DNA from: an uncultured Muribaculaceae bacterium
GTDB lineage: Bacteria > Bacteroidota > Bacteroidia > Bacteroidales > Muribaculaceae
Assembly (NCBI GenBank): GCA_934661195.1
Contig: CAKUJD010000001.1
Coordinates: forward strand, 310,001-374,000
Direction: 5' to 3'
DNA: 64,000 nucleotides
Below the pieces are notes generated by a model that was not told the origin of the DNA, made no database searches, and was given only the letters and a program-made list of their open reading frames with translations. The first letter of the stretch is position 1, and each line of letters starts with the position of its first letter. A program made the position numbers and the translations under genes. This document shows, one piece after another, positions 1-51,881 of this stretch.

Positions 1-2607
1 CCCGAAAGCACCAGCGCAAGCTATGCCATACGCTTCTCGTCGGCGTCGAGCAACGTGAATGTGGCCTACAACACCGTGCGCGTTGTGGGCAGCGGCTCTT
101 CGTCGGCCGCAGTGATGCTTGGCGATGTGGTGAAGGGCACGTTTGTCAACAACCTGCTCCAGAACGAGGGCACTGGCTATGTGTGGCGCGCCAACAAGGC
201 CGATTACATTGCCGATGCCGAGTTCAAGCACAATGTGATGCACACCGCCGGCACCAGCATAGCCTATGTGGCAGGAGCCATATCGGGCCGTGAAGACTGG
301 GCCGAGACCACTGGCGACACCACCAGCATCGATGCCTCCAAGGCATTTGTGAGCGACATCGAGCTGATGCCCGCGAGCGCCGACAACCTAAACATTGCCG
401 AGCCTCTGAGCTACGTCACCACCGACATCACCGGCGCCACCCGCGCCGCGGTTCCCACCGTGGGCGCATATGAGTTCAGCAGCCAGTTCCCGATTCCGGC
501 CTACGCCGAGGGCTACCCGCAGTTTGCCGGCATAGCCAACACATCGGCCACAATGGTTGTCAAGACCACAGCAAGCGGCATGGCCGCAGTGCTTGTGAAG
601 AAGGCCAGCGAGGCCGCACCCACAAGCGAGGATGTTGAGGGCAGCGACAACATTGTGGAGGTGCGCCGCGACGTTGAGACCGAGATTGCACTCAGCGGCC
701 TTGAGAAGTCTACCGACTACAAGGCCTACTCGGTGCTCTACAACGTCAAGGGTGAGAAGAGCGGCGTGATTGTGAGCGATGTGTTCACCACCGCCACCGA
801 TCCCACTCAGGTGTCCACATTCGAGAATGTGACCACCACCGCCACCGGCTTCACCGATGGCACCGCAGCCTTCAAGGGCTTTGAGGTGGTGACCGTGGCC
901 GACGCCGTGGTTGATGGCAGCAAGGCGGCTCAGGTGGCTGCCGGCGCAACTGGCGAAATCACCATCACCAACTCGGAGAAGGGACTTGTGCTCAACGGAT
1001 TCTTCCTGAAGTCCACATCGACTGTGGCAGCCGCCACGGCCGACACCACATTCACCCTGCCCTCTACCGGCGGCAAGTGGATGTTTATAAACCTGCGCGA
1101 CAAGGGCCTGATTGCAACCCTCAAGCTCACTGCGGGCGACAGCCTGTTCCAGATCGATAACTTCAGCGGCGAGCCGCTCGACCTTATTGTTCTGCTCAGC
1201 GACGTCACAGTGAACCAGGGTGAGCAGTTCACCCTTGCTCCCAGCATCAACGCCTCGCGCGGTGTGGCTCCATACACCTACAAGTGGACCAGCCTCTATG
1301 GCGCAGACCTGGGCAATGCCAGCAGCCTCAGCATGACTGCCAGCAGCCTGGGCATCTACAAGGTGACTGTGACCGACGCTTGGGGCAACACCAGCGACGC
1401 CAGCGCACAGGTTAGTGTGATTGGCAAAGCAGTGCCCGGCACGTTCGAGGAGAAGACTCTCGATAGCGAGACCTACTGGAACGGCGAGAACGCTGGCAAC
1501 AGCGTTAGCGGCACTCTCAGCTACTGGTACACCGGTTCTTATCTGCTGGCAGTCCAGAATCACACCGCCACATGGTGGGGCGGCTTCGGCCTGTCGAATG
1601 AGACCAGCACCGAGTTCACTTCGCTCACCCACCAGTTCCGTTCGTCAACCGGTGGCGGCCACAACTCGAGCAACTATGGCGTGTACTACCCGCTGAGCAG
1701 CGCCGACCTGCGCGTCACCAACAGCGCCGACGGCGACAGCATCAACGGCTTCTACATCACCAACAATGCTTATGCGCTCTCTTCGATGCTCAATGGCGAC
1801 GGCATGGCCAAGCCGTTCAAGAAGGGCGACTACTTTAAGGTGACCATCAAGGGCTACAACGGCACCACTCAGGCCACCGGCTCGGTCGACTTCTATCTGG
1901 GCGACTACCGCGCTGCCAACAGCGCCGACCACTACCTGCTTGACACATGGCAGTGGGTTGACCTGCGCCCGCTGGGCAAGGTGAAGACCCTCACATTCAG
2001 CTTCGATGGCACCAAGGAGAACGATATGGGCCTGACCACGCCCACCTACTTCTGTATCGACGACCTGAACGGCGAGCGCGACATCACCGTGGCCGATCAG
2101 GTGACGGTGCCCGTGGGCAGCAAGAATGTGCATCTGGCCGGCCTGTTCACCCTTGAGGGCAACGGCGCCACAGTGACCTACGCATTCCCCGACGGCATCG
2201 ACTCAACCGACATTGAGGCAGCTATCGACGACAACGGCATGCTCACGCTCACCGGCAAGACCGAGGGCGCTGAAACAAGCGTGCTGCTGAGCGCCACTGA
2301 AGCCGGCAAGACGCAGTTTGTGCGCCTGCCAGTCAAGGTGGAGCGTGGCACTGGCATCGACCAGACAGAAGTTGCCACCGACGTGGCCATCTATCCTGTG
2401 CCCGTCACCACCATGCTCAACATAGCCACTTCGCTCACCGACTACACCGTGAGCGTGTTCAACACAGCCGGTGCGGCAGTCTACTCTAAGGCAGGTCTCA
2501 GCGGCAACGTGACCATTGAGCGCGGCAACTGGGCCGCAGGTGTGTATGTGGTTAAGATCGCAGCAGCCGACGGCACCAATGTGGTTCGCCGCATCACAGT
2601 GAAATAA
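1..2607 (+). CDS. T9SS-exported multidomain surface protein, C-terminal part
   Basis: The frame is open from base 1, so the start lies upstream of the window. The visible part begins with the end of a beta-helix (short repeats rich in N, V and G, about 1-260). A fibronectin-like segment follows at about 480-810, then a PKD-like stretch near 1190-1430 (KVTVTDAWGN), then a DUF4465-type domain at about 1440-2080 with aromatic-rich strands (YWYTGSYLL, WWGGFGLS). The last about 75 residues (from VAIYPVPVTTMLNIA) are a typical type A T9SS sorting domain ending in RRITVK. Known of the family: such tails direct secretion through the type IX system. The domain mix suggests a carbohydrate-binding or adhesive surface protein; this is inference. 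A strong terminator follows. Confidence 0.8.
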   Translation, partial: PESTSASYAIRFSSASSNVNVAYNTVRVVGSGSSSAAVMLGDVVKGTFVNNLLQNEGTGYVWRANKADYIADAEFKHNVMHTAGTSIAYVAGAISGREDWAETTGDTTSIDASKAFVSDIELMPASADNLNIAEPLSYVTTDITGATRAAVPTVGAYEFSSQFPIPAYAEGYPQFAGIANTSATMVVKTTASGMAAVLVKKASEAAPTSEDVEGSDNIVEVRRDVETEIALSGLEKSTDYKAYSVLYNVKGEKSGVIVSDVFTTATDPTQVSTFENVTTTATGFTDGTAAFKGFEVVTVADAVVDGSKAAQVAAGATGEITITNSEKGLVLNGFFLKSTSTVAAATADTTFTLPSTGGKWMFINLRDKGLIATLKLTAGDSLFQIDNFSGEPLDLIVLLSDVTVNQGEQFTLAPSINASRGVAPYTYKWTSLYGADLGNASSLSMTASSLGIYKVTVTDAWGNTSDASAQVSVIGKAVPGTFEEKTLDSETYWNGENAGNSVSGTLSYWYTGSYLLAVQNHTATWWGGFGLSNETSTEFTSLTHQFRSSTGGGHNSSNYGVYYPLSSADLRVTNSADGDSINGFYITNNAYALSSMLNGDGMAKPFKKGDYFKVTIKGYNGTTQATGSVDFYLGDYRAANSADHYLLDTWQWVDLRPLGKVKTLTFSFDGTKENDMGLTTPTYFCIDDLNGERDITVADQVTVPVGSKNVHLAGLFTLEGNGATVTYAFPDGIDSTDIEAAIDDNGMLTLTGKTEGAETSVLLSATEAGKTQFVRLPVKVERGTGIDQTEVATDVAIYPVPVTTMLNIATSLTDYTVSVFNTAGAAVYSKAGLSGNVTIERGNWAAGVYVVKIAAADGTNVVRRITVK

Positions 2608-2650
2608 TCCCAAAAATGGCCGCATAGCCATTTAACCAGTAAAAACGACG

Positions 2651-2690
2651 CAGGGCCGGACTTCCGCAAGGAAATCCGGCCCTGTTTCGT
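2651..2690 (+). terminator. Intrinsic terminator after the T9SS protein
   Basis: The arms CAGGGCCGGA and TCCGGCCCTG (2651-2660 and 2675-2684) enclose a 14-nt loop and are followed by TTTCGTTT. Almost the same stem is used at 37026-37062. Confidence 0.8.
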
Positions 2691-2744
2691 TTCACCCAAC
2701 CCGCGTAGTGTATTATCGCATAAGTAATCGATTCAATGTGCGTT

Positions 2745-3712
2745 ATATGTAGGGACGTGGCATGTTATATCTACTGCAATTCATTGCAAATCAATTGATT
2801 GCGCATAAATAATTGCAGTTCATGGAGGCGTATTGATGTGATTTTGCTTTCGTGCTGAGTGGGGCTACGCCCGTTGGACGCGGCATGCCGAGAGCACTGA
2901 AAAGGTAGCAATTCGAGCGAGTTGGAGGGCGCGCTCTACAGCAACAAATGCTGTATGGACGTGGCATGCCACGTCCATACACAAATTGCTGCAAATTAAT
3001 TGATTATGTATGAATAATTACAGCCAATGGAGGCGTATTGATGTAATTTTGCTTTCGTGCTGAGTGGGGCTACGCCCGTTGGACGCGGCATGCCGAGAGC
3101 ACTGAAAAAGTAGCAATCCAACGAGTTGTGGGCGCACCATACAGCTACGAATGCTGTAGGGACGTGGCATGCCACGTCCAACGCAAATCACTGCAAATCA
3201 ATTGATTATGTATAAATAATTACAGCCAATGGAGGCGTATTGATGTAATTTTGCTTTCGTGCTGGGGGCTACGCCCGTCGGACGCGGCATGCCGAGAGCA
3301 CTGAAAAAGTAGCAATCCAACGAGTTGTGGGCGCACCATACAGCTACGAATGCTGTAGGGACGTGGCATGCCACGTCCAACGCAAATCACTGCAAATCAA
3401 TTGATTATGTATAAATAATTACAGCCAATGGAGGCGTATTGATGTAATTTTGCTTTCGTGCTGGGGGCTACGCCCGTCGGACGCGGCATGCCGAGAGCAC
3501 TGAAAAAGTAGCAATCCAACGAGTTGTGGGCGCACCATACAGCTACGAATGCTGTAGGGACGTGGCATGCCACGTCCAACGCAAATCACTGCAAATCAAT
3601 TGATTGTGCAAAAAAACAATCACAGCCAATGGAGGTGTATTTGATGTGATTTTGCTTTCGTGCTGGGGGCTACGCCCGTCGGACGCGGCATGCCGCGTCC
3701 CTACAGCAAGCG
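2745..3712. repeat. Tandem array of about 200-bp palindromic repeat units
   Basis: Four full units start near 2789, 2998, 3199 and 3398, with a partial unit from about 3597 to 3708. Units 3 and 4 are both 199 bp and look identical; units 1 and 2 are slightly longer and diverged. Each unit carries the perfect 20-bp palindrome GGACGTGGCATGCCACGTCC (for example 2957-2976 and 3160-3179) and a second GGACGCGGCATGCC core that is broken in the internal units and restored to full symmetry in the last one. Short minus-strand reading frames recur in each unit but are a by-product of the repetition. Solo relatives in the opposite orientation lie at 54.57 and 61.02 kb. Confidence 0.9.
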
Positions 3713-3813
3713 TCTGTAAACCAGATTTTTAGCGGTTGTTTTTAAACTTCAACCCTCAACTTTAAGCCTTATTTCGCTTAGAGTGAAATTTTTCAGTGCT
3801 CTCTGTGTGTTTT

Positions 3814-5448
3814 TTAGAATGGGGCAGGGGTGCTGACGGTGACGCGGCGGCCGGTGACGGGATGGGTGAAGGTGATGCTTTGGGCGTGCAGCATAAGGCG
3901 CGGGGCCGCTTGGCCACCATACAGTGTGTCGCCCACAATGGGTGCGTTCAGCCCCGACGGGTGGGCGCAGTGCACGCGCAGCTGGTGGGTGCGGCCCGTG
4001 AGGGGGTGCAGTTCGAGTCTAACAGTGCCGTTGGCGTTGCGGTGGGTAACGCGCCAGGCGGTGACTGCCGGTTTGCCGTGCTCACTGTCCACCACCTGAC
4101 GCGGACGGTCGTCGGGATCGGGGCGCAGCGGCAGCCTCACATATCCGCTGTCGGCCTCCACCGTGCCGCTCACCACAGCCACGTAGGTCTTGGCCACGCG
4201 CCGTGTGGCAAACTGCTCTTGCAACGCTTTGTGCACCTCCTTGCTTTTGGCTGCAAGCAGCAGGCCGCTGGTGGCCATGTCGAGCCTGTGCACCACCAGC
4301 GGACCGCTGGCCTCGGGCAGCACGGCCCGCAGTGCACTTTGCACCGAGTGGCCGTGCAGCTTGCCTGGCACACTCAGCACCCCGGCAGGCTTGTTGACCA
4401 CCACTATCCACTCGTCGTCATACACCACTTGCAGTCGCTTTTGGTCTTCATTTGGCTCAGCGGCCAGCGGATTGGGCTCAACGTCGAGCCCCTGCAGCAT
4501 AAAGCCCAAGATGGGCTTGCACTTGCTGTGGCAGGCAGGGTAGAAGTGGCCGTGCCTCCTTATGGTGGAAGAGGGCGACTTGCCCCACCAGAATTCGGCC
4601 ATGCACTGCGGCTGCATGCCGTGGGTGTATGCGTAGTTGAGCAGCTTTGGCGCGGCGCATTCGCCCGCTCCCGCAGGCGGAACACCTCCCGTTGAGGCTG
4701 CGAAGATGGCGTTGAGGTCGCTTGTGCGCCCCATGGCGTTGCGCACCACAAACAGACTGAATATGCGCCGTTGCAGGGCTTCGCTCATGGCTTTGCGTCT
4801 CGACTTGAGTTCGCTGATGCGCCCGGTGAAGTCTTGCAGTGCGGCCTCGGCCTTGGCGCATTGTGCCTCGCCTTGGCGCCTGATGCGCTTCAGCTCGGCC
4901 TTTTGCCACTGGCTCTCGGCCACCAGCCGCTGCGCTGTGGCCTCGTCAAGGCCGCCTGCGCTGCGCAGGGCGTTGCGCCGCTGGCGCGCCGAGGCCATCA
5001 TGGCCTTGAATTTGCCGCTGCGGCTTTCGGCCTCGTCCATTGCTGCTTTGACTGAGGTCCGCAACTGTGCCAGTGTGCTACTTTGCTCCATTTGGCCGAT
5101 TTGGCGGTTGATGGCCGAGATGGCCTCTTCGCCTTGGCGGAATTCGCCATCGGGCTGCAGCAGGTCGTAGACGGGCGGCACAAAGTAGCTGTGCACGTTG
5201 CTGCCCGCAAGGTTGCCCGAGAAAGCGGCCAGAAACCCCATCGTGTCCTCGCCGTCGCGCACTACCAGCACTCCAAACATCTTGCCTTCGGCCAGTTCGG
5301 CGGCCCAGTCGGCGCGTGAGGCAATGTAGCGCTTCACCTGCGCCGCAGCCTTGAGGCACAGTGGGTGAGGGGTGTAGTGAAACGGGTAGGTGAACTGCCG
5401 TGGAGGCTCGGCGCACGGCTCTATCGGATGCAGCTTGGGGTCGGTCAT
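3814..5448 (-). CDS. RluA-family RNA pseudouridine synthase with long N-terminal extension
   Basis: The product isomerises uridine to pseudouridine in rRNA or tRNA. The C-terminal half is the catalytic domain: VVNKPAGVLSVPG is followed by the signature HRLD at residues 387-390, with D390 the expected catalytic aspartate, then TKTYVAVV-like and GRTHQLRVH motifs. At 544 residues it is about twice the usual RluA length. The first about 340 residues contain a charged helical, probably coiled-coil section at about 105-230 and a Cys/His-containing stretch before the catalytic domain. Long proteins of this architecture are known in Bacteroidales; the substrate cannot be told from sequence. The start lies 6 nt after the stop of the HD gene, so it is the last gene of a four-gene operon. 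Confidence 0.85.
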   Translation of the reverse strand: MTDPKLHPIEPCAEPPRQFTYPFHYTPHPLCLKAAAQVKRYIASRADWAAELAEGKMFGVLVVRDGEDTMGFLAAFSGNLAGSNVHSYFVPPVYDLLQPDGEFRQGEEAISAINRQIGQMEQSSTLAQLRTSVKAAMDEAESRSGKFKAMMASARQRRNALRSAGGLDEATAQRLVAESQWQKAELKRIRRQGEAQCAKAEAALQDFTGRISELKSRRKAMSEALQRRIFSLFVVRNAMGRTSDLNAIFAASTGGVPPAGAGECAAPKLLNYAYTHGMQPQCMAEFWWGKSPSSTIRRHGHFYPACHSKCKPILGFMLQGLDVEPNPLAAEPNEDQKRLQVVYDDEWIVVVNKPAGVLSVPGKLHGHSVQSALRAVLPEASGPLVVHRLDMATSGLLLAAKSKEVHKALQEQFATRRVAKTYVAVVSGTVEADSGYVRLPLRPDPDDRPRQVVDSEHGKPAVTAWRVTHRNANGTVRLELHPLTGRTHQLRVHCAHPSGLNAPIVGDTLYGGQAAPRLMLHAQSITFTHPVTGRRVTVSTPAPF

Positions 5449-5454
5449 CGAAGT

Positions 5455-6120
5455 TTAGTTCTGTTGTGGGGTTGACGTTACAGCGGCGTAGGCTGCGTCA
5501 AAGGCCTGGCGCAGCGCTTGCTCGTTGTCGATGAGCTGGCGCAGCTGCTCAAGGCGTGCGGCGTTGGAGCTCTCGGGAATCCACAGCTGCAGATATCCGC
5601 TGCGGCCATACTTCTCTGTCATGTGGCTGCGCATGCGCTCGTATTGCTGCTGGCGTGTCAGCTCGGGGTAGTGGTCAAGGCCGTAGAGCACTGTGCGGCG
5701 CACCACGGTGTCGGCATCGATCAGGCGGTCGGCCTCGGCCACCAGCCGGCCATACAGGGTGCGCGGCTCGTGGCCGAGTGAGGCCCTGTGGTCTTCGGCC
5801 GCGTCGGCTATCAGTTCGATCTCGTCGGGCGAGAACCAGCGGCGCAGCCGGCTGTCGGTGCGCACGATGTGAGCGCTTTCGGTGTGGTGCGTCTTGCGCC
5901 CGGCGCGCAGCCCTGTGTCGTGATAGGCTGCGGCTGTCAGTGCCACAGCCTTGTCGGCCTCTGGATAGAAGCTGGCCAACTCCATGCACTGGCTCATCAC
6001 GCTGTGCGCGTGGTCGCGGCGGTGGCCGGCATCGAAGTGGTCGTATAGTGGCACTATCTCGTTTTCAAGAAAGCGCTCAATCTCGTGAAATTCGCTCTCG
6101 CTATGCTTTGTTGTATTCAT
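5455..6120 (-). CDS. HD-domain phosphohydrolase
   Basis: This 221-residue protein has the HD-superfamily metal ligands: histidines in the GHRRDHAHSV segment (residues 32-41), the HD doublet in YHDTG (H67, D68), and a later EDHRAS segment. Family members hydrolyse phosphomono- or phosphodiesters, often of nucleotides, in the cytoplasm; the substrate here is unknown. The gene starts inside the last 20 nt of lpxB, so the two are probably translationally coupled, and it is followed 6 nt later by the pseudouridine synthase. No signal peptide or membrane helix is visible. Confidence 0.8.
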   Translation of the reverse strand: MNTTKHSESEFHEIERFLENEIVPLYDHFDAGHRRDHAHSVMSQCMELASFYPEADKAVALTAAAYHDTGLRAGRKTHHTESAHIVRTDSRLRRWFSPDEIELIADAAEDHRASLGHEPRTLYGRLVAEADRLIDADTVVRRTVLYGLDHYPELTRQQQYERMRSHMTEKYGRSGYLQLWIPESSNAARLEQLRQLIDNEQALRQAFDAAYAAVTSTPQQN

Positions 6121-8142: not shown

Positions 8143-9432
8143 ATGTATATACACGAAAGAAGCAATTGGACGGCATTCAAATGGGATGCGTCAGCACTTA
8201 CGGCAATCATTGAAAATGTTGGCCGCAAGCAAGGTTTATTGTATGGCAGGCTTGCCTCGCTTGGCTTTGACAGCAAACTGAAAGCAATGGCCGAAAATCT
8301 GACGTATGACGTGGTGTATTCTTCAGAAATAGAGGGCGTTAGCCTGAATGTGGACGAGGTGCGCTCGTCTATAGCCCGAAAACTTGGCATTGAAAATGTA
8401 AGGCTTTCGGCTCCGTCGCATTATGTGGACTCTGTTGTTGCAGTAATGCTCGACGCTGTGGGCAACTACGACAAACCGCTGACCAAAGAAAAGCTATGCG
8501 CTTGGCAGGCAGCATTCTTCCCCACGGGGTTCAGTGAGGGCGCCCAGATCGAAGTCGGGAAATACCGCACCAATGAGGAGCAAATAATCTCCGGTATGTT
8601 TGGCCGGGAAAAAGTGCACTACATAGCTCCTGCTCCAGAACGGGTGGAAGAAGAGATGGCAAGATTTATCGACTGGTTCAACAAGGATGAGGGCACAAAC
8701 TCTGTTATCCGTTCAGCCATAGCCCACTTGTGGTTTGTGAGTATCCACCCGTTTGAGGACGGCAACGGGCGGCTGGCGCGCATCCTTTCGGATATGCTGC
8801 TGGCCCGTGGCGACCGGAGTGAGTTGCGCTTCTACAACATCTCTTCGCAGATCAATAAGGATAAGAGCCATTACTACGACATTCTGGAAATGACGCAGCA
8901 TGGCAGCGGCGACATCACGGAATGGATATTGTGGTATGCCAAGACGTTGTCAACAGCTCTTGACGACGCTTGGAATGTGGTGAGCACCATATTGAATAAG
9001 AGCCTGTTTTGGCAGAATGCTTCGTCTGTGTCGTTAAGCCAGCGGCAAACCGACATCCTCAACCTGTTTCTTGACGGTTACGAGGCAAAAATCACATCTA
9101 AGACGTGGGCCTCGCTTGGCAAGTGCTCAAAGGATACAGCCATCCGCGACATTCAAGACCTTGTGGCGAAAGGCATTCTTCGTGAGGACATACCTGGAGC
9201 CAAGCGCCCAAGCTATTCAATCAGGTACAACCCTGAAGACATCACTGAATTCTTTTCAGACGTCAATGTGGAGCAGGACAATGGCACTTGCTATCTGACG
9301 GCGATATACAAGGGCAAAACACCAGTGCGCGAGCGAATGCTTGCATTGGATGCCGAATGCTTCAAGAAAGGCGATTTGTCGGCAGGCAATCTGCTTGCCA
9401 AGTATTGTTCCTACATCAAAGCCAATTCGTAA
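8143..9432 (+). CDS. Fic-family AMP-transferase with N-terminal inhibitory motif
   Basis: The catalytic Fic loop HPFEDGNGR is intact at residues 202-210, with H202 the expected catalytic residue. The N-terminal part (DUF4172/Fic_N-like) carries the inhibitory pattern S/T-x-x-x-E-G/N at S60-G65 (SSEIEG), making this a class II Fic whose own alpha-helix blocks ATP until released. A C-terminal winged-helix-like domain (residues about 295-370, with SQRQTDILNLFLDGYEAKIT) suggests DNA or partner binding. Fic enzymes usually transfer AMP to a target Ser, Thr or Tyr; the target is unknown. The length of 429 residues is complete. The 3' half of this gene is repeated at 12921-13325 and 18983-19669. Confidence 0.9.
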   Translation: MYIHERSNWTAFKWDASALTAIIENVGRKQGLLYGRLASLGFDSKLKAMAENLTYDVVYSSEIEGVSLNVDEVRSSIARKLGIENVRLSAPSHYVDSVVAVMLDAVGNYDKPLTKEKLCAWQAAFFPTGFSEGAQIEVGKYRTNEEQIISGMFGREKVHYIAPAPERVEEEMARFIDWFNKDEGTNSVIRSAIAHLWFVSIHPFEDGNGRLARILSDMLLARGDRSELRFYNISSQINKDKSHYYDILEMTQHGSGDITEWILWYAKTLSTALDDAWNVVSTILNKSLFWQNASSVSLSQRQTDILNLFLDGYEAKITSKTWASLGKCSKDTAIRDIQDLVAKGILREDIPGAKRPSYSIRYNPEDITEFFSDVNVEQDNGTCYLTAIYKGKTPVRERMLALDAECFKKGDLSAGNLLAKYCSYIKANS

Positions 9433-9524
9433 TCTCCCAATGCTGCTATGAACGCAAAGCAGAAGGCCTTGCGCCCTTCAGGGTGCAAGGCCTTCTGTGA
9501 ACATTAGCCAGTGTCAGCCAATCT
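9028..9524 (+). repeat. Direct repeat, copy 1 of the fic 3'-end cassette
   Basis: By eye, these 497 bases are identical to 12921-13417 at a constant offset of 3893 bases. They cover the last about 135 codons of fic, its stop, and a strong hairpin (CAGAAGGCCTTGC at 9460-9472, GCAAGGCCTTCTG at 9485-9497). Homology continues, diverging, to about 9750. Confidence 0.9.
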
Positions 9525-9690
9525 TTTCGCAATTGAAAAATGCCTGGTTCATGTGGATTGGCTCTACCCCAATGCCATATTTGCTCATAAACAACTGTGG
9601 CTAGTACGGGCTGCTCGTGAGGCATACTGATAGGTGGTATTGCCGACGGGGTGCTTAAGTGTTATAGACTATTGTTAGCACAGTAAAGGC
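9514..9690 (-). pseudogene. Broken copy of the DUF6140-type gene
   Basis: This is the decayed counterpart of the intact gene at 13407-13640. The last 24 codons survive (MSKYGIGVEPIHMNQ ... NCEKIG, then TGA at 9516-9514), but a TAG interrupts the frame just upstream. About 100 bases corresponding to the 5' half are deleted, so that GTGCTT is joined to the upstream AAGTGTTATA. The promoter has also decayed: the TACCTTTG box of the intact copy is not preserved near 9680. Confidence 0.75.
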
Positions 9691-9771
9691 CAGTCTGGGG
9701 TGTGCCAATTATGGACATAACTTTCAAAAAACGGACGAATTGAAAATCGCTCATTAATTCATTGCAATTGT

Positions 9772-10350
9772 CTACAAGTCGTCCATTATCTGCTGACGTA
9801 GCTTTTCTTGGTTTGCATTGTCGAAATAGCTCAGCATTACATAGCATGACGAAACACCATTGTGGGATATTTCAAGTTGAACATCTCCCTGCTCGCATGA
9901 GAAAATGGAATAATACTTGTATTTGTCGAATTGCACTCCATACATTTTAGAAGAAGCGTCTCGGTCATAACTGCTATTGAAATACTCCTCGCATAGTACG
10001 GGATCCCCATATTTCTCAGTCAGCATAGACTTGTAATTTGAATAGCAATTATCCAAATCTCCCCACTTATCCATACTTGGGAAGACAACGGTCACTTTGC
10101 AAATCATGCCACTTTTATCGGCAACAGCTGCAATAGTGCAGTTTTTATAGCCTGCAAATTCACCCTTTAGCATGGCAACACCATCCTGAGTGCCTATTGG
10201 AGTAAAGCCTTTAGCCCTTAACTTGACTGTAAATGTCTGGAGAGAGCCTTCCATGGGAATGCCCTTGAATTTCATATGCTCGGTCTGCGCTGAGCAGACG
10301 CCAATGCCGACAAATAGCGTTAGCAGTAATGTTAATAACAGATGCTTCAT
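9772..10350 (-). CDS. Small secreted protein of unknown function
   Basis: The start chosen gives MKHLLLTLLLTLFVGIGVCSAQ, a clear signal peptide cleaved after about residue 21. The earlier ATG would add 13 residues ahead of it. The mature part (about 170 residues) starts HMKFKGIPMEGSL and contains MLTEKYGDP near the middle. I recall similar exported proteins in Prevotella and Bacteroides, but no function. It has several aromatic residues and two cysteines in the C-terminal half that could form a disulphide. Coding is well supported by the signal peptide and length; no operon partner is evident. Confidence 0.6.
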   Translation of the reverse strand: MKHLLLTLLLTLFVGIGVCSAQTEHMKFKGIPMEGSLQTFTVKLRAKGFTPIGTQDGVAMLKGEFAGYKNCTIAAVADKSGMICKVTVVFPSMDKWGDLDNCYSNYKSMLTEKYGDPVLCEEYFNSSYDRDASSKMYGVQFDKYKYYSIFSCEQGDVQLEISHNGVSSCYVMLSYFDNANQEKLRQQIMDDL

Positions 10351-10559
10351 AAATGTTGATTTTAGATGTACAAAACAGGGTATAGTCAATATAGCCCTAA
10401 ATGTTTCTCAACCAAATGAAAATGGATGTGAACAACTCTTTCTCTTTCTATGGCAAATATAACGCTTTTCGCTCAAGCAATCGGCAAATTGCCGAAATAA
10501 AAAATCAGAAAAAGCAATCCGCGGGCGCGAGTTTCATCGGATGGTGGGGGGAAGACTTT

Positions 10560-11399
10560 TCAGCGTTTGCCTTCCTTATGCATCTTTAGCTTCAGTTCAG
10601 AAGGAGAACAGCCCGTCTGGTTCTTTACAAAACGTGTGAAGTGAGCCGGATTGTAGAAGTTCATCTGGTTGGATATCTCTGCAATGGAGAGGTCGGGACT
10701 TTTCAACAAAGAGAGGATTTCCTGCATGGCGTAGCCGTTTATCCAATATGAAGCAGGATGGCCGCTACTCTTCTTCACCACCTCAGAGAGGTATTTGGCA
10801 GAGACGCACAGTTTGTCGGCATAGAAATTCACCTCGCGCTCTGTCTTGGAGTGGGCGGGGAGCATGTTCATGAAGCGTGTGAATAGCAAGGCGGTGCTGT
10901 TGTCGACCTGATGGATGTTGTCGATGGCCTGATGGTATATCTCCCAAAGGTCGAGCAAGAAAACCTGAAGCTGCTTGCCGATAATTTCCCTTTGAAACAA
11001 GTGGGGCTCCGCTGCTCTGCGCTTGAATTGGATGAAATTGTATTCAATCATGGCCTTGCTCCTTTCATCAAGTCGAAACACAGGATTCTTCTTGATGAAC
11101 ACAAACGCCTTCGAGGCCCACGCCTTCTCAGGGTTGTATTCAAGGAGGAAATCCTTGTCCACCAAGAGGAAGTCGGCATCGAAATCCGATGAAAACACAG
11201 CATCGCTTATCTGCGACGACATCTGCCAAATGACCCAGTCTCCGGCCTCTATTGCATAAGTGCTGCCCATAAACGAGAATTGCGCCTTGCCGTAGCGGCA
11301 CAGGATATGGATGTGATACCGTCCGAGATAGTCGGACGGCAGTTTGTGGCTCTCCTTTGTGTTATATAATAGTATGTCGCGGTTTACTGGTGCTTCCAT
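10560..11399 (-). CDS. AraC-family transcriptional regulator
   Basis: The C-terminal third holds two helix-turn-helix units with the family pattern (LCVSAKYLSEVVKKSSGHPASYWI, then SIAEISNQMNFYNPAHFTRFVKNQTGCSPSE in pieces). The N-terminal part is a cupin-like sensing domain (GRYHIHILCRYGKAQFSF). The ATG at 11399 is preferred over 11426 because the minus-strand -7 box TATCTTTG occupies 11431-11424. The gene is divergent from the hydrolase at 11612, so it may control it; the ligand is unknown. Confidence 0.85.
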   Translation of the reverse strand: MEAPVNRDILLYNTKESHKLPSDYLGRYHIHILCRYGKAQFSFMGSTYAIEAGDWVIWQMSSQISDAVFSSDFDADFLLVDKDFLLEYNPEKAWASKAFVFIKKNPVFRLDERSKAMIEYNFIQFKRRAAEPHLFQREIIGKQLQVFLLDLWEIYHQAIDNIHQVDNSTALLFTRFMNMLPAHSKTEREVNFYADKLCVSAKYLSEVVKKSSGHPASYWINGYAMQEILSLLKSPDLSIAEISNQMNFYNPAHFTRFVKNQTGCSPSELKLKMHKEGKR

Positions 11400-12757: not shown

Positions 12758-12915
12758 TTATTCCATGGTCCCAAGGTTTTCTTCCACGAATAGTATGATG
12801 ACTTTCTGCCATTCGTCCTCATTGCCATCTCTTATGCCCGAAGCCATCCAATAGGCATACTTGCCATGCGTTAATTGCGTGAGCTGATGCTTGTCACTTC
12901 CATAACGGAACTCTT
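12758..12915 (-). pseudogene. C-terminal remnant of a minus-strand gene cut by the fic repeat
   Basis: The minus-strand frame reads RYGSDKHQLTQLTHGKYAYW, then SGIRDGNEDEWQKV and ends VEENLGTME before a stop at 12758. It looks like genuine protein sequence. Upstream, at about 12920, the frame runs into the fic-derived duplicate, where the reading is only the antisense of fic. The parent family is not recognised. Confidence 0.5.
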
Positions 12916-12920
12916 CGTTG

Positions 12921-13325
12921 GTGTCGTTAAGCCAGCGGCAAACCGACATCCTCAACCTGTTTCTTGACGGTTACGAGGCAAAAATCACATCTAAGACGTG
13001 GGCCTCGCTTGGCAAGTGCTCAAAGGATACAGCCATCCGCGACATTCAAGACCTTGTGGCGAAAGGCATTCTTCGTGAGGACATACCTGGAGCCAAGCGC
13101 CCAAGCTATTCAATCAGGTACAACCCTGAAGACATCACTGAATTCTTTTCAGACGTCAATGTGGAGCAGGACAATGGCACTTGCTATCTGACGGCGATAT
13201 ACAAGGGCAAAACACCAGTGCGCGAGCGAATGCTTGCATTGGATGCCGAATGCTTCAAGAAAGGCGATTTGTCGGCAGGCAATCTGCTTGCCAAGTATTG
13301 TTCCTACATCAAAGCCAATTCGTAA
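12921..13325 (+). pseudogene. fic 3'-end fragment (copy 2)
   Basis: Identical to the end of the intact fic gene from the VSLSQRQTDIL segment to the stop. It lacks the whole Fic catalytic domain and inhibitory helix, retaining only the C-terminal winged-helix-like region. It is followed by the same hairpin (13353-13390). Whether the 135-residue frame is translated as a free DNA-binding domain is unknown; no promoter is visible in front of it. Confidence 0.85.
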
Positions 13326-13406
13326 TCTCCCAATGCTGCTATGAACGCAAAGCAGAAGGCCTTGCGCCCTTCAGGGTGCAAGGCCTTCTGTGAACATTAG
13401 CCAGTG

Positions 13407-13875: not shown

Positions 13876-14949
13876 ATGACCAGCGAAAAGATTAAAGTTG
13901 AGGCAATCAAGTTTGAAGTAGTCAACGGGAAGAAGACTGGCAAGTCAGTCTCCTTCAGTTTGGATCCTAAGGAGATGGCAAAAGAATGCAAGACCATGGC
14001 TGCCGTACGCAAGAAAATTGCGGAGCGCGTGTTAAAGATGGGCGTGTTTAAGCGTTCGGAACTTAGCGGCCTAAAGTATGACATGAATGAATTTCTTGCA
14101 GAATGGAAGAAGATGCTTCCGGTGGTTGATGCAGAAGCGCTTGCCGAGCTGACAAAGTCTAACAACAACACTGCGTCGCGTGTGACTCCCGGCAAGATCA
14201 CCCGTTTGGCTCCCAATGAGGTCTTTGTGTTTGGCAGCAATGCGCTCGGCCATCATGCAGGCGGCGCCGCCAAAGTGGCTCTTGAAAAGTTTGGGGCCGT
14301 ATGGGGGCAAGGCCACGGGCTGCAAGGCAAGGCTTATGCCATCGACTCGATGAGCGGCGATGATGCGATGATGAGAGACGTGGCGGCGTTTGTGGCTTTT
14401 GCAAAGCAGCACCCCGAGAAGATCTTCCTGGTGACTCCCATTGGGTGTGGAATTGCCGGAAAGCGTCCGTCGGAGGTGGCTCCAATGTTTAAGGATTGTG
14501 CCGAGATGGAAAATGTGTGTCTGCCCGCTTCATTCTGGAAAGTCATTGGCAAGCCGCAATCCCTGCAGAATAGCTACGACTTGCAGCGTTTTGTTGATGC
14601 GCAAGACTCGGCTTACGCACAAGCCCTTTGCGAGCTGAAGGCTGGACGCAAAACGAGCCATTGGATATGGTACATCTTTCCGCAGCAGAAGGGCCTCGGC
14701 CACAGTGCCAACTCTAAATTCTATGGCCTTGACGGGGAAGGCGAGGCCCAAGCCTACATTGCCCACCCCCTGCTTGGAGAGCGCTTGCGCGAATGCTGCC
14801 GGGCTCTCCTGCAGCATAAGGGCAAAGACATCGCCGACATAATGGGAAGCCAGATTGATGTGCAGAAGCTGCAAACGTGCATGAACCTCTTCAATCGTGT
14901 CTCGCCCAACGATGTCTTCGCGGAGGTCCTAAACGAATTCTTCCAATAA
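13876..14949 (+). CDS. Fusion of FGSN-type (phage-associated, macro-like) domain with DUF1810
   Basis: The 357 residues fall into three parts: a basic N-terminal section (1-95), a domain opening with NEVFVFGSNALGHHAGGAA and containing FLVTPIGCGIAG (about 113-225), and a C-terminal DUF1810 domain (about 235-357: LQRFVDAQDSAYAQAL, HWIWYIFPQQKGLGHS). The FGSN...G..GGAA pattern with a later TPIGCGIAG segment resembles macro-domain-like proteins carried by phages. I believe both families have been linked to NAD/ADP-ribose chemistry, but no activity is shown here. It has its own promoter and a terminator at 14965. Its position beside Fic copies in an accessory region fits a toxin, immunity or defence role; this is inference. 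Confidence 0.7.
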   Translation: MTSEKIKVEAIKFEVVNGKKTGKSVSFSLDPKEMAKECKTMAAVRKKIAERVLKMGVFKRSELSGLKYDMNEFLAEWKKMLPVVDAEALAELTKSNNNTASRVTPGKITRLAPNEVFVFGSNALGHHAGGAAKVALEKFGAVWGQGHGLQGKAYAIDSMSGDDAMMRDVAAFVAFAKQHPEKIFLVTPIGCGIAGKRPSEVAPMFKDCAEMENVCLPASFWKVIGKPQSLQNSYDLQRFVDAQDSAYAQALCELKAGRKTSHWIWYIFPQQKGLGHSANSKFYGLDGEGEAQAYIAHPLLGERLRECCRALLQHKGKDIADIMGSQIDVQKLQTCMNLFNRVSPNDVFAEVLNEFFQ

Positions 14950-15073: not shown

Positions 15074-15784
15074 ATGAAACTGTTGGAAATACTAAAAAAA
15101 ATGTTGTCTTGTAGTGCGACGGAAGTTTCGGAATCGGTAGAGCCTTTTGTAGATAGTAATAGGCATCTCGAGGATTATGCAGGCTGTGACGACTTATGGT
15201 TGGTTGCTGGCGATAATACGTTGACTTTGGTTTTTAATGTCTTATTGGGCGGTCTGCATAACGTGCTTTCCTATGATCCATGTTCTCGCGATATTCAAAA
15301 TTGCTGCTCGGAAATAAATGCCATTATAGGAAAGAATCTTGAAGAAGTCTATGAAAGTATTGTTGTCAAGATGGGGGAGAATCAATACCTACTAAATATT
15401 GGAATAAACCTACTGCAGGGCCCTGGCATACCTTTATCTCAGGAACTATGTGAAGATTTAATAGACGCTTTTTATCCAGTCATAAAACGATTCGTTGATG
15501 AACACATTGTGGACAACAAGGTTGGTATTTATTCTGTTTTCGCTGATGGTGGTCATGGAACTTCGGTTGGTTTGCTTGGCTTGGTCAATCATTTGGAAAA
15601 AGATGGTTACGCATGTTGTGGGGTTGGAACGTCTGATCACAGTTCCTCATATTCATTAAAACTGGCAAAAGAATGGCAAGGTTTTAAATATATTGACTGC
15701 GGATATCTGCTTGGGGATGATATGTTTTCTTTGCTGCATGACGAGTTGGTGGCTAAAATGGGAAATGGCACTATCCGTCAGTGA
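15074..15784 (+). CDS. Unknown protein, first gene of a radical SAM operon
   Basis: I do not recognise this 236-residue protein. It starts MKLLEILKKMLSCSATEVSES, has no signal peptide or membrane helix, and contains nine cysteines including the doublets NCCSE and ACCGVG. A segment VFADGGHGTSVGLLGLVNHL lies near residues 154-173. The region is AT-rich compared with the core genes. The frame ends in TGA at 15782, but the same frame stays open for another 33 sense codons to a TGA at 15884 (next entry). No TAnnTTTG promoter box was found between the preceding terminator and the ATG. It probably works with the two radical SAM enzymes that follow. Confidence 0.7.
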   Translation: MKLLEILKKMLSCSATEVSESVEPFVDSNRHLEDYAGCDDLWLVAGDNTLTLVFNVLLGGLHNVLSYDPCSRDIQNCCSEINAIIGKNLEEVYESIVVKMGENQYLLNIGINLLQGPGIPLSQELCEDLIDAFYPVIKRFVDEHIVDNKVGIYSVFADGGHGTSVGLLGLVNHLEKDGYACCGVGTSDHSSSYSLKLAKEWQGFKYIDCGYLLGDDMFSLLHDELVAKMGNGTIRQ

Positions 15785-15886
15785 TCTGATTTGCCTGATT
15801 TATTTGTATCTAAAGATGATATGTCTTTACCAGTTCATTGCTATTACAGCAAGTATTGTTCTGGTGGCGGAAAAAAAGATGTTTGA
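15785..15886 (+). other. In-frame extension beyond the TGA of the unknown gene
   Basis: Directly after the TGA at 15782-15784 the same frame runs 33 codons, reading SDLPDLFVSKDD and then MSLPVHCYYSKYCSGGGKKD, to a TGA at 15884-15886. The extension contains two cysteines, a histidine and a GGG motif. It ends 15 nt before the next gene, whereas the first TGA leaves a 117-nt gap. It could be the true C-terminus behind a nonsense or sequencing change, a recoded stop, or a separate 21-residue peptide starting at ATG 15821. Confidence 0.4.
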
Positions 15887-15901
15887 GAAAGATGTTCGCG
15901 T

Positions 15902-16780
15902 ATGAAAATTTTCCACAAAAGCATATTGATAAAAAAGACAAGCTGCAATATGACGGGGACACCCGGTCATCCTATATCCCCATCAGTAAACCTTTTTGTG
16001 AAAGTCACAAAGGCTTGCAATGCTCATTGCCCTTTTTGCAGTAATGCAGGATGTCAAAGCCCCACATCTCCATTTGATGTTGATAAACTGATTTGTATCA
16101 TACATGAGTTAAAAAATAAAGGTATAATTGTTAATCGTGTCAATATTACAGGCGGAGAGCCGTCTTTGGTCTCGCCTTTGGTGGTGCGTATCCTTGCCGC
16201 CATAGAAAAAGAACGATTTGATGATGTACATCTACATCTAAATACAAATGGAGCTACAGTGCAAGCGCAAGACTTAATGCAGCATCCGCGTTGGGATAGC
16301 ATTTCGATGTCATTGCATCATTATGATGTTGGTTGTTTGTCAGAACTATATGGGTGTGAGCTGTCGACAAAATTATTTCAGTTCAAAGGAGTGAATAAGC
16401 AGATAGTAAATTTTAGCTGCAATCTTATAAAGGGGTATATTGATAATAAAGAAGAAGTTCAGAGAATGCTTAATCTGACTTTGGATTTGGGTGTTCATCG
16501 TATTGGTTTCGTGGCTCTTATGCCTGTCAACGACTTTTGCAGAGAACATTTTGTGGACATTAATTACATACCTTTTGCAGAAATACCGCATGCCTATTTC
16601 ACAGGGGCTAAGGATAGAGGAACAGATTGTAAATGTAGTAATTATCTTTACAACCGAGATTTGAGGATATTAGAGATTTACATGCGCAATTATGCTAATC
16701 CGCAATATTGTGAGTCTTCCCTTGTTTTTGATGGAGAATACCTTCGTCAAGGTTTTTATAGTGATAACATCATTTATTAA
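15902..16780 (+). CDS. Radical SAM protein (MoaA/NifB/PqqE-like)
   Basis: The CxxxCxxC cluster is C39, C43, C46 (KACNAHCPFC) and should bind the SAM-cleaving 4Fe-4S cluster. The SAM-binding GGEP motif follows in VNITGGEPSL. The C-terminal third has three more cysteines (TDCKCSNYLYN and QYCESS), which could hold an auxiliary cluster in place of a full SPASM domain. The length is 292 residues from this ATG; an alternative ATG 16 codons in (MTGTPGHP) is possible. The gene lies 15 nt after the extended upstream frame and 12 nt before the HemN-like gene. The substrate is unknown. Confidence 0.85.
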   Translation: MKIFHKSILIKKTSCNMTGTPGHPISPSVNLFVKVTKACNAHCPFCSNAGCQSPTSPFDVDKLICIIHELKNKGIIVNRVNITGGEPSLVSPLVVRILAAIEKERFDDVHLHLNTNGATVQAQDLMQHPRWDSISMSLHHYDVGCLSELYGCELSTKLFQFKGVNKQIVNFSCNLIKGYIDNKEEVQRMLNLTLDLGVHRIGFVALMPVNDFCREHFVDINYIPFAEIPHAYFTGAKDRGTDCKCSNYLYNRDLRILEIYMRNYANPQYCESSLVFDGEYLRQGFYSDNIIY

Positions 16781-16792
16781 TTTATTGATAGG

Positions 16793-18055
16793 ATGGAAGT
16801 TCTTAGTGACATTTTCGAAAAGAGGAAGAATGATTCTCGTTGGAATACCTCTTATCCTCTCTCTCCTGATGATTGGAAAGTATATCGCGTATCAGGAGAG
16901 TTGTCTTTTTCTGGAGAAAAAGAAATGTCTTTCTATATTCACATTCCTTTTTGTAAAGGCTTATGTTCTTTTTGTGAATACACAAGGATGCTTTGTCCAA
17001 GTGAGGAGATACAGGAACATTATATAGCTACACTAAAACATGACGTTTGGAAATTCATAAAAAAGTATCCGTCAGTCAAACTTTGTGGTTTTGATGTTGG
17101 AGGTGGAACGCCAACAGCCATGAACGCCAAGCCTTTTGAATTGCTAATGAACTTATGCAGCGAGATTATGGCTGTTTTGAATATCTCAGAAAGTTTTACG
17201 CCGAGCATAGAGGCTACATTTGAAACATTGTCGGCTTCCAAAATTGAAATGTTGAGATCCGCAGGTTTCGGAAGAGTGTCACTTGGAGTTCAGTCCACTA
17301 TGGAAAACGTCTTGTTATGCAATCATCGTAAGCCTATAGAAGTAGATAAAATGATAAACACAATATCTATGCTACATGGCAAAGGTGTTGTTGTAAACTT
17401 AGACGTGATGTATGGATTAAAAGGGCAAACGGTTGAAAGTCTTCGACAAGATGTGTTAATATTGAAAGTTTTGCAACCTGAGCAAGTAACCCTTTATGAA
17501 CTACGTACAAATATGATTAGAGAAAAAGACCATATGACTAAGGATGAATTATATAATTCTTATTCATTTCTATATAATGCTTTACGTGATTTGGGGTATA
17601 ATGCTCGTTTTGGACAAAACACATTCTCGAAAAGTGCAAATGATATAGGTGTGAGTTCATATTTGAGAGAAAGAATGATGAATGCTGGTGCTTATAAGGG
17701 ATTTGGTATCTCTGCTCAGAGTATGAGCCGAAATGGCATTTCCTATAATGTAGGCAAACTTAAAAGGGCATTCAATGATTTGTTGGCAATGAAATCTTAT
17801 GATGAAGAATATGTTTATCAGCTTCCGCCCAAAGAACTTGCGTCAAAATATATAGCCATTGGTGCTTATAATGGTTCATTCTCATTGAAGAAACTTAGTG
17901 AATTATTGGAATGTGATGCTAAAAAATATTATTCCAGCCAATTGGGGTTTTGCCTTTCACATGAGTATGCCGAAATTTCAAATGATAGAGTTTTTGTTAC
18001 CCCATTAGGTTTTAAGTATTATGGAGCATTGTTTTCTTTGTTTTATGCTTTATAG
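16793..18055 (+). CDS. HemN/HemW-like radical SAM protein
   Basis: This 420-residue protein carries the HemN-type signature FYIHIPFCKGLCSFCEY with C54, C58 and C61 as cluster ligands, then GFDVGGGTPTAM, an IEATFETLS segment and GRVSLGVQS, all characteristic of the coproporphyrinogen III dehydrogenase family. The C-terminal winged-helix-like part ends VTPLGFKYYGALFSLFY. Family members include heme enzymes, the heme chaperone HemW and class C radical SAM methyltransferases of natural-product pathways. The pairing with another radical SAM protein and an unknown partner, away from heme genes, favours a modification role; this is inference. Confidence 0.8.
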   Translation: MEVLSDIFEKRKNDSRWNTSYPLSPDDWKVYRVSGELSFSGEKEMSFYIHIPFCKGLCSFCEYTRMLCPSEEIQEHYIATLKHDVWKFIKKYPSVKLCGFDVGGGTPTAMNAKPFELLMNLCSEIMAVLNISESFTPSIEATFETLSASKIEMLRSAGFGRVSLGVQSTMENVLLCNHRKPIEVDKMINTISMLHGKGVVVNLDVMYGLKGQTVESLRQDVLILKVLQPEQVTLYELRTNMIREKDHMTKDELYNSYSFLYNALRDLGYNARFGQNTFSKSANDIGVSSYLRERMMNAGAYKGFGISAQSMSRNGISYNVGKLKRAFNDLLAMKSYDEEYVYQLPPKELASKYIAIGAYNGSFSLKKLSELLECDAKKYYSSQLGFCLSHEYAEISNDRVFVTPLGFKYYGALFSLFYAL

Positions 18056-18334: not shown

Positions 18335-18393
18335 AATGTATAGGCAACTAATCCAATGAAAAGATATGAAATAAACTGACATTTAAAATGAAA

Positions 18394-18445
18394 AGTCCTG
18401 TAAATCTTTCGATTTACAGGACTCTGTAGCGGAGAGAGAGGGATT
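18394..18445 (-). repeat. 52-bp direct repeat of the tRNA-Ser 3' end (att-like, distal copy)
   Basis: Base-for-base identical to 22739-22790. It comprises the tRNA-Ser terminator hairpin and the last 16 nt of the tRNA (18430-18445), after which the sequence departs from tRNA. This is the expected footprint of site-specific integration into a tRNA gene. Confidence 0.85.
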
Positions 18446-18967: not shown

Positions 18968-18982
18968 TAAGAACATTTTGCA

Positions 18983-19669
18983 CACCCGTTCGAGGACGGC
19001 AACGGACGGTTGGCACGCATCCTTTCGGATATGTTGTTGGCTCGTGCCGACAAGAGTGAGTTCCGTTTTTATAATATATCCTCGCAGATAAACAAAGACA
19101 AAAATCATTACTATGACATTTTGGAAAAGACACAGAATGGCAACGGAGATATAACAGAGTGGATTTCATGGTATGCCAGCACTCTGGCAATTGCTCTTGA
19201 CGAAGCGGAAAATATGGTCAGCACAATACTCAACAAGAGTATTTTCTGGCAGAAAGTTTCGGCAGTGTCACTAAGTCAGCGTCAAACAGACACACTTAAT
19301 CTTTTCCTTGATGGTTATGAGGCAAAGATTACGTCAAAGACATGGGCTTCGCTTGGCAAATGCTCCAAGGATACAGCCATTCGCGATATACAGGACCTTG
19401 TGGCGAAAGACATACTGCGTGAGGACATTCCTGGAGCCAAGCGTCCAAGTTATTCCATCATATACAATCCAGAAGACATGACCGAATTCTTTTCCAACAT
19501 TAATATTAAGGAGGATAACGGAGTTAACTACTTGACAGCAATGTACAAAGGCAAGACGCCTATGCGTGAGAGAGTGCTACCATTGGATGCGGAACGCTTC
19601 AGAAAAGGTGATTTGCCAGTAGAGAATTTGCTTGCAAAGTATTGCTCATATATAAGAACAAACCAATAA
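18983..19669 (+). pseudogene. fic fragment lacking the N-terminus (copy 3)
   Basis: The frame begins exactly at the catalytic loop HPFEDGNGR and runs to the normal C-terminus (CSYIRTNQ). A TAA lies five codons upstream, so the inhibitory motif and the first about 200 residues are missing. The protein is clearly similar to copy 1 but the DNA is diverged, so this is an older or independently acquired copy. A TTG at 19010 could start a 219-residue product only after the His of the catalytic loop. I regard it as a truncated pseudogene. Confidence 0.8.
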
Positions 19670-22647: not shown

Positions 22648-22738
22648 TTGTGTAAGGCTTGTATGAAATGATGGATAAAATGTATAAGATATTCGCTAAC
22701 CCCGCAATGGGGGGCTACTTAAAAGCAGAAAAAGAAAG

Positions 22739-22790
22739 AGTCCTGTAAATCTTTCGATTTACAGGACTCTGTAGCGGAGAGAGAGGGATT
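22739..22790 (-). repeat. 52-bp direct repeat at the intact tRNA-Ser (att-like, proximal copy)
   Basis: Identical to 18394-18445. It includes the terminator hairpin (AGTCCTGTAAATC at 22739-22751, GATTTACAGGACT at 22756-22768, then a U-rich tail on the minus strand) and the last 16 nt of the tRNA. Confidence 0.85.
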
Positions 22791-22859
22791 CGAACCCCCG
22801 GAGGTGTGACCCTCAACGGTTTTCAAGACCGCCGCATTCGACCACTCTGCCATCTCTCC
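22775..22859 (-). tRNA. tRNA-Ser (anticodon TGA)
   Basis: 85 nt. The acceptor stem is GGAGAGA/TCTCTCC with discriminator G, a long class II variable arm is present, and the anticodon loop is CTTGAAA. The CCA end is not encoded. A promoter box TATCTTTG lies on the minus strand at 22896-22889. It serves as the integration site of the accessory region to its left. Confidence 0.95.
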
Positions 22860-45403: not shown

Positions 45404-45490
45404 GGAGAGGTGGGTGAGTGGCTGAAACCAGCAGTTTGCTAAACTGCCGTAGGGGTAACCCTACCACGAGTTCGAATCTCGTCCTCTCCG
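45404..45490 (+). tRNA. tRNA-Ser (anticodon GCT)
   Basis: 87 nt. Acceptor GGAGAGG/CCTCTCC with discriminator G, anticodon arm GCAGT-TTGCTAA-ACTGC fully paired, long variable arm, T arm CGAGTTCGAATCTCG. No encoded CCA. It marks the left edge of the type I RM island. Confidence 0.95.
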
Positions 45491-49315: not shown

Positions 49316-49320
49316 TGTCG

Positions 49321-49806: not shown

Positions 49807-49843
49807 GTTTATTTTATATCAATATCCTTTGCTTCTTGCAATT

Positions 49844-49861
49844 CGTCGGTCATGACCGACG
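49844..49861. promoter_or_regulatory. Perfect 18-bp palindrome before the DUF1016 gene
   Basis: CGTCGGTCATGACCGACG, 38 bp upstream of the minus-strand ATG and about 40 bp from the REP-like arm of the RAYT element. It could be an operator, or a residual repeat core. The rest of 49807-49900 is AT-rich and empty. Confidence 0.4.
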
Positions 49862-49900
49862 ATTTTATGTTTTACTCAAATTTCGGATTTGGTCCCCAAT

Positions 49901-50563: not shown

Positions 50564-50598
50564 GCCTCTGCCTAAATCAGAAGTTCCAATAATTTATT

Positions 50599-51876: not shown

Positions 51877-51881
51877 ACACC

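Follow-up and report, generated by a model that had tools for sequence, protein, structure and literature searches.

The closest described systems to the genes considered here are those in which radical S-adenosylmethionine (SAM) enzymes mature ribosomally synthesized and post-translationally modified peptides (RiPPs), such as the His-Xaa-Ser (HxsB/HxsC), mycofactocin and PqqE systems, together with the HemN-like class of radical SAM proteins, which contains the class C methyltransferases. Here, we analyze a 64-kb stretch (64,000 nucleotides, hereafter the window) of contig CAKUJD010000001.1, positions 310,001 to 374,000, from an uncultured Muribaculaceae bacterium, in which three consecutive plus-strand genes encode a protein that we call P1 (15074–15784, 236 aa), a radical SAM protein, P2 (15902–16780, 292 aa), and a HemN-like radical SAM protein, P3 (16793–18055, 420 aa). 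The explanation that we favor, and to which we give an even chance of being correct, is that P2 and P3 are maturases that modify a cysteine-bearing segment of a protein whose gene lies immediately before theirs, in a RiPP-like manner linked to ADP-ribose, and that the copy in the window is damaged. In relatives of this locus, the protein targeted would be one whose C-terminal part is a domain that we refer to as YGQ.

Both P2 (PF04055, E = 7.8e-13) and P3 (Pfam Radical_SAM, E = 9.3e-12) retain the intact CxxxCxxC cluster that a preliminary description of this DNA had read in them, at C39/C43/C46 in P2 and at C54/C58/C61 in P3, the latter being invariant in 19 sequences. P2 is like the RiPP maturases in having extra conserved cysteines, in lying (in relatives) directly behind a candidate substrate and in being one of two radical SAM proteins in its system. 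It differs from them, however, in falling below the cut-off of all NCBIfam models listed (the best 25 of 44), with HxsC at 43 of 268 bits, and in that, in Bacteroidales, it would act on one domain within a protein of ∼290–790 aa, coupled to ADP-ribose domains. The best NCBIfam match of P2 is the archaeal MoaA model, at 55.7 bits against a cut-off of 325, and by cut-off the protein is neither MoaA (TIGR02666 and TIGR02668, 48.5 of 284 and 55.7 of 325 bits, respectively) nor viperin (NF038283, 34.8 bits, cut-off 180).

In the case of P3, the HemN-type radical SAM core with its CxxxCxxC motif corresponds to the sequence definition of HemN-like class C and is shared with HemW, HemN, STM4012 and NocN, and its relatives in the PDB are HemN (1olt, 4.6e-34) and NocN (9p2u, 3.2e-21). 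Unlike these proteins, P3 is linked to YGQ and P2, and it lies below the cut-off of all 25 NCBIfam models that it matches, the best being STM4012 (NF006067, 137.7 bits, cut-off 380), a family encoded in an operon with STM4011 and STM4013–4015. HemW (TIGR00539) reaches 112.4 bits against a cut-off of 205.4 and, furthermore, a separate HemW was found in all 6 of the relative genomes searched, at 276–292 bits vs 119–134 bits for the P3 homologue, such that P3 stands apart from housekeeping HemW, as had been supposed. A defense-system label was rejected, as the PADLOC matches are weak (pVip at 34.8 bits for P2, PDC-M51A for P3 and PDC-S07 for an NrtR protein).

Gene order and the YGQ domain in Bacteroidales relatives

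A scan of GTDB genome contigs with an alignment of P2 gave 52 loci (numbered with the prefix L), of which 45 hold full family members; those left out are L046–L049, L051 and L052, which match as a generic radical SAM core at 25–36 bits, and L050, which gave no hit. P3 adjoins P2 in 44 of the 45, directly downstream in 42 and upstream in 2 (in the order P3–YGQ–P2), while in the remaining locus, L037, the sequence ends 73 nt after P2. Because the two genes are adjacent in 44 of 45 loci, their pairing is beyond chance. The YGQ domain is present in 42 of these loci, L044 being included for a weak match to the C-terminus (21 bits), and in 40 of them it is found upstream of P2 at a distance of at most 400 nt. 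The exceptions are L034 and L043, which start 37 nt and ∼1 kb before P2, respectively (the latter with a macrodomain protein there), L035 and L040, where YGQ is followed by a P1-like gene, and L018, which has no YGQ in 5.5 kb. The RiPP arrangement of a precursor directly upstream of its maturase is therefore seen in 40 of 45 relatives but not in the window, where only a probable YGQ remnant occupies this position.

YGQ spans ∼320 profile positions. A mostly helical part of ∼200 residues precedes a segment that bears two near-invariant cysteines and that in one large subgroup reads DGPCHPEVxxP...GPVY...SCGEGKG. The cysteine columns are covered in 41 of 44 YGQ segments, with the first cysteine kept in 39 and the second in all 41; the 44 include two pieces of the broken L019 gene, two proteins of L017, L021 without the cysteine region and the short partial match of L044. 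The protein that contains YGQ comes in six architectures (L001, L002, L005, L017, L030 and L028), in all of which YGQ is kept, while the front is a macrodomain, DUF1810 plus a macrodomain, an ADP-ribosylglycohydrolase plus a macrodomain, a P1-type or FtsZ-like domain, or nothing. In L002, for example, a single open reading frame (ORF) of 740 aa (2023–4245) joins ADP-ribosylglycohydrolase, macrodomain and YGQ, and the YGQ-only protein of L028 has no Pfam or NCBIfam match. No row of the fold search covers YGQ, which was not searched alone.

This variable front and constant YGQ suggest that YGQ is the part that is recognized and modified, while the front module would steer its action. We infer the role of YGQ as the substrate from gene order and conservation: P2 would carry out the first, radical step on the Cys/Gly segment, and P3, being of the HemN-like class, would add a second one. 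In line with such a role, C15, C173, C243 and C245 of P2 are kept in all 46 Bacteroidales members (the 45 loci and the plasmid locus L109) and in all 17 viral members described below (C15 being uncovered in L079), and these extra cysteines probably include ligands of an auxiliary Fe–S cluster, judging from their conservation. In L035, an HAD domain of the RNA-repair "Swiss Army Knife" proteins is encoded directly after P3 (10149–10628), and in L030 a trypsin-like peptidase gene (4799–5560) lies upstream of the FtsZ-like YGQ protein.

The neighbors of P2 in the 45 loci include a macrodomain in 35, DUF1810 in 14, an NrtR-type Nudix protein in 11 and an ADP-ribosylglycohydrolase in 8, counted anywhere in the fetched stretch of up to 8 kb on each side (and, for the last three, on either strand). 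The P2 protein occurs in one plasmid record, Prevotella pE2-28, where ADP-ribosylglycohydrolase, NUDIX, DUF6717, two DUF1810, YGQ, P2 and P3 genes stand in one row; no plasmid match to the operon DNA itself was obtained with megablast. Such neighbors point to ADP-ribose or nicotinamide adenine dinucleotide (NAD) as what the system senses or acts on. Described macrodomains, ADP-ribosylglycohydrolases and NrtR proteins (NF049995, PF03747, and NUDIX with PF21906) are thus represented in the P2–P3 loci, and in L002 in the same ORF as YGQ, but their pairing with radical SAM enzymes and YGQ was not found in literature searches, at the level of search results. These searches also gave no case of DUF1810 with a radical SAM enzyme, and DUF1810 was absent among the matches listed for macro domains or ADP-ribose. 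Judging from these search results, the P2–P3–YGQ system is apparently undescribed and, if our explanation is correct, it would extend radical SAM maturation past small peptides to multidomain proteins tied to ADP-ribose. Neither these ADP-ribose neighbors nor the phage relatives that we turn to now were foreseen in the preliminary description.

The P2 family in viral contigs

A first scan of viral contigs gave 10 loci, eight of which (L053–L060) hold P2-family members with 29–36% identity over nearly the full length, while L061 and L062 are partial query matches and lie outside the set counted below. From a second viral set of 30 loci, we dropped L080–L093, which match over a short core stretch only, and kept the 16 loci L064–L079; these and L110–L112 make 19, which become 17 distinct viral loci after merging L065 with L066 and L070 with L110, each pair being the same locus. 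Among 50,697 phage records, 4 carry the P2 family at E ≤ 1e-10, belonging to uncultured huge phages of 635, 642 and 735 kb (the last as two records). Matches to P3 in 34 phage records were set aside as general HemN-like matches, all of the 20 listed having <60% identity and none covering 80%.

In 15 of the 17 distinct viral loci, including those of the 635- and 642-kb phages, an ORF ending in cysteine lies close upstream of the P2-like gene. These ORFs are 82–211 aa long from the first start (135 aa in L111 and 89 aa in L112, from stop to stop), and 12 of them (in L064, L065, L067, L069, L071, L072, L074, L075, L077, L079, L111 and L112) have tails rich in Gly, Ser and Cys, such as DDGCGRGGYPRSSC, DPCARGGYTRGGC and SDCGMGGGYSTSRC. 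In L073, the ORF that we counted has its end 156 nt upstream of the P2-like gene, two short ORFs being closer to that gene, and another Cys-ended ORF precedes it in L059, from the same contig; in L078, the P2-like frame is split, and the ORF was taken from L060, again from the same contig. Of the 237 ORFs of at least 60 aa in nine of the viral loci, 10 end in cysteine; 7 of these are the upstream ORFs in question, and 3 are among the other 230. In addition, an RlmN/Cfr-type radical SAM motif is present in the 3–4-kb flank of 10 of the 17 loci, and the four such viral proteins that were scanned match RlmN/Cfr models, with scores below the cut-offs. From their sequences, the viral loci look like a precursor and its maturase, often with a second radical SAM enzyme, in the manner of RiPP-like phage cassettes; if this is true, huge phages would have modified-peptide cassettes of their own.

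More tentatively, and with rather less confidence than in the favored explanation as such, we propose that P2 represents an unnamed maturase family of Bacteroidales and viruses, including huge phages. The phage enzymes would target small proteins with Cys-ended tails, mostly rich in Gly, Ser and Cys, making these ribosomal peptides modified by a virus, and the Bacteroidales enzymes would target the YGQ domain of multidomain proteins with tubulin-like, macrodomain or other ADP-ribose modules, a signaling or conflict system that radical chemistry would arm. The viral loci also bear on a different explanation, which we consider unlikely, in which the P2–P3 pair synthesizes a small molecule, with NAD, ADP-ribose or a nucleotide as examples of its starting material, YGQ is the enzyme or sensor of this molecule and not a substrate, and the macrodomain, ADP-ribosylglycohydrolase, Nudix and DUF1810 parts handle the nucleotide. 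What the viral P2 loci share is the Cys-ended ORF, not ADP-ribose neighbors, although L053 and L059 do carry nicotinamide mononucleotide (NMN) adenylyltransferase/Nudix genes some kb from P2. Similarly, while the best NCBIfam relatives of P2 are MoaA models, and MoaA acts on GTP, the scores are far under the cut-offs given above. The frequency of ADP-ribose-handling domains around P2–P3 is also compatible with a small-molecule product, as is the fact that HemN-like enzymes of known families act on small molecules as well. The L053 genes, a bifunctional NMN adenylyltransferase/Nudix gene and a nicotinate phosphoribosyltransferase-type gene (3703–4743 and 9365–10747) a few kb from the P2-like gene, are a NAD salvage set in one viral locus.

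Returning to the maturation of an upstream-encoded protein by P2 and P3, a number of observations weigh against it. YGQ might function as an enzyme or adaptor whose cysteines bind metal or have a structural role, and it may be dispensable, since the window and L018 keep P2–P3 without it. No homology was demonstrated between YGQ and the viral ORFs, and a C-terminal cysteine is found in only 9 of 43 Bacteroidales cluster-2 proteins, several of them close relatives, for which reason we dropped a final cysteine as a rule for the Bacteroidales YGQ proteins. Among the viral loci, L068, L073 and L078 have the final cysteine without a Gly-rich tail, the L070/L110 lineage (including the 735-kb phage, which does not fit the pattern) and L076 are without a Cys-ended ORF, and 7 of 17 have no RlmN-type motif in the 3–4-kb flank, although L073 has one farther off (in L059). 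A further extra cysteine of P2, C213, is kept in 42 of 46 Bacteroidales and 12 of 17 viral members, and its loss in the other 4 and 5 makes a four-cysteine auxiliary cluster uncertain. Finally, the macrodomain–DUF1810 gene ahead of P1 in the window (13876–14949) has a host-like composition (GC 0.53, and 0.63 at third codon positions, GC3), and its tie to P1–P3 is here therefore only one of place.

P1 and the damaged copy in the window

The gene positions and spacing given in the preliminary description agree with our own: a frame in phase with P1 stays open past its TGA stop (15785–15886) and ends 15 nt before P2, and 12 nt separate P2 from P3. Its description of the genes as AT-rich and unlike the core also holds, with GC contents of 0.40, 0.375 and 0.356 for P1, P2 and P3 (GC3 of 0.36, 0.33 and 0.30), respectively, compared to 0.537 for the whole window and ∼0.60 in its GC-rich parts. 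Searches gave 671 protein relatives of P2 at E ≤ 1e-10 and 1176 of P3 at E ≤ 1e-20 (the best 120 of each being listed), and at E ≤ 1e-20 the P2 family is sporadic, with members in just 2 genomes (the center genome included) among 393 from the order. This sporadic, foreign-looking and modification-type gene set is in agreement with the horizontally acquired modification pathway that had been proposed.

No YGQ domain was found in the 64-kb window. The frame behind the stop of P1, which had been read as an extension of this protein, is instead probably the 3′ remnant of a YGQ domain (15785–15905, plus strand) left after an internal deletion, with a stop in frame and perhaps further frame loss, and not a working extension. 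When 1440 window segments were compared with a profile built on the final 50 positions of YGQ, 15785–15883 came out on top (E = 0.01), with "DLFVSKDDMSLPV" of the window aligned to "elYvPisDySLPV" of the profile; the score is weak and the margin small, an L,D-transpeptidase ORF being the runner-up at E = 0.017. What makes this reading convincing is not the score but the place, as the segment sits just before P2, where the C-terminus of YGQ lies in relatives. Selenocysteine or readthrough at the TGA was rejected, because the closest P1 homologue, P0002 (99% identity, on one 2.5-kb contig), stops likewise, other homologues end differently and a YGQ remnant fits better; the letters would also allow a separate small gene for a peptide in the gap between P1 and P2, but nothing was found in its support.

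In terms of the favored explanation, YGQ would have been deleted between P1 and P2, with P1 as the front module that was left behind; P2 and P3 would either serve a YGQ protein encoded elsewhere in the genome or be on their way out. Taking the second possibility further, the window locus may simply be a relic, in which the YGQ output is lost, P1 is truncated and P2–P3 are kept by chance. We rate this slightly below even and note that it is compatible with the favored explanation for the relatives. Apart from the missing YGQ domain and the probable remnant in its place, it has parallels in loci where YGQ is damaged or lost, the frame being broken in L019, the cysteine stretch missing in L021 and YGQ absent from L018, which has a scrap of NrtR before P2. 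A simple relic is harder to reconcile with P2 and P3, which are of full length with radical SAM and family cysteines intact, and with the presence in other samples of a P3 relative (P0136, 96% identity, on 12 contigs of up to 42 kb) and of P0002, which has the same end as P1, such that the truncated form persists. In L021 (7753–7778), the YGQ gene is in frame but without the stretch bearing the second invariant cysteine.

P1 itself is unrecognized, as had been noted, since neither Pfam nor NCBIfam gave a match at E values of up to 1 (PF00091 and TIGR00065 included), but its description as a Cys-rich protein does not carry over to its relatives: in a 10-row alignment, only C70 is invariant and the other cysteines are mostly unconserved. 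Fold prediction suggests that P1 is probably a diverged tubulin/FtsZ-fold module (residues ∼36–236), and its homologues share an invariant GTS, which we take to lie at the place of the FtsZ glycine-rich loop. The FtsZ rows aligned to P1 stop at its end, at FtsZ residues 171–213, and P1 thus corresponds to the first half only; the second half of tubulin/FtsZ, which contains the T7 catalytic loop, is absent from P1, the alignment reaching the end of the protein. P1 is like FtsZ, TubZ, CetZ and PhuZ in its probable, predicted fold, and in L030 the corresponding position is taken by a Tubulin/FtsZ-like domain (PF00091 at 2.3e-7, just under the cut-off, and TIGR00065 at 3.9e-11), but P1 differs from these proteins in having no sequence match and in its half length. 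P1 and the FtsZ domain of L030 were rejected as sequence relatives, the profile comparison not being significant.

P1 has 14 protein relatives at E ≤ 0.01, among them one from Alloprevotella (66% identity over 87%). Homologues are rare in genomes, with a single hit in 399 genomes of the family of G001 (the L017 protein) and one in 37 genomes of the genus of this hit (the hit itself). Searches with P1's own patterns confirmed none in viral contigs and GTDB genome contigs. All three genome loci with a homologue (L017, L035 and L040) have it inside the P2–P3 gene set. The proposal that P1 acts alone as a working partner, carrier or substrate is nevertheless improbable in our view, and P1 is not the best candidate substrate. 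Stand-alone homologues of 246–262 aa do occur in metagenomes, and two loci, L035 and L040, have a P1-like gene standing alone between YGQ and P2, but in L017 the P1-homologous domain runs on into YGQ as a fusion, P1 has a single invariant cysteine, and a P1- or FtsZ-like domain is present in only 4 of the 45 loci. The constant partner is YGQ (42 of 45), the P1 type being one of several fronts. The preliminary description is in this sense partly supported, being right in kind and wrong in the role given to the first protein.

Neighboring genes and flanks of the window locus

The gene at 13876–14949 (plus strand, 357 aa) encodes an A1S_2505-type macrodomain (128.4 bits, above the curated cut-off of 45) followed by DUF1810, and both domains recur in the P2–P3 loci of relatives. 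By its place, it is likely a companion of P1–P3, not proven to be part of one operon, and it perhaps has a different origin and its own transcription unit. A pattern scan found no terminator between this gene and P1, and a hairpin there has a z-score of −1.3, with 24 of 200 shuffles equally good.

The AT-rich genes are flanked by a full Fic/DUF4172 gene (8143–9432) and two similar 3′ fragments (12908–13325 and 18977–19669), which are 99% and 79% alike to the full gene over 300 nt, as if insertion or recombination had recurred at the 3′ end of a Fic gene. Near-identical palindromic repeats form one pair adjoining the Fic copies (9460–9497 and 13353–13390) and another downstream of P3 and at tRNA-Ser 22774–22859 (18385–18445 and 22730–22790). 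Farther along, a type I restriction-modification system (HsdR, HsdS and HsdM; 45761–53930, minus strand) lies in an AT-richer stretch after a tRNA-Ser at 45404.

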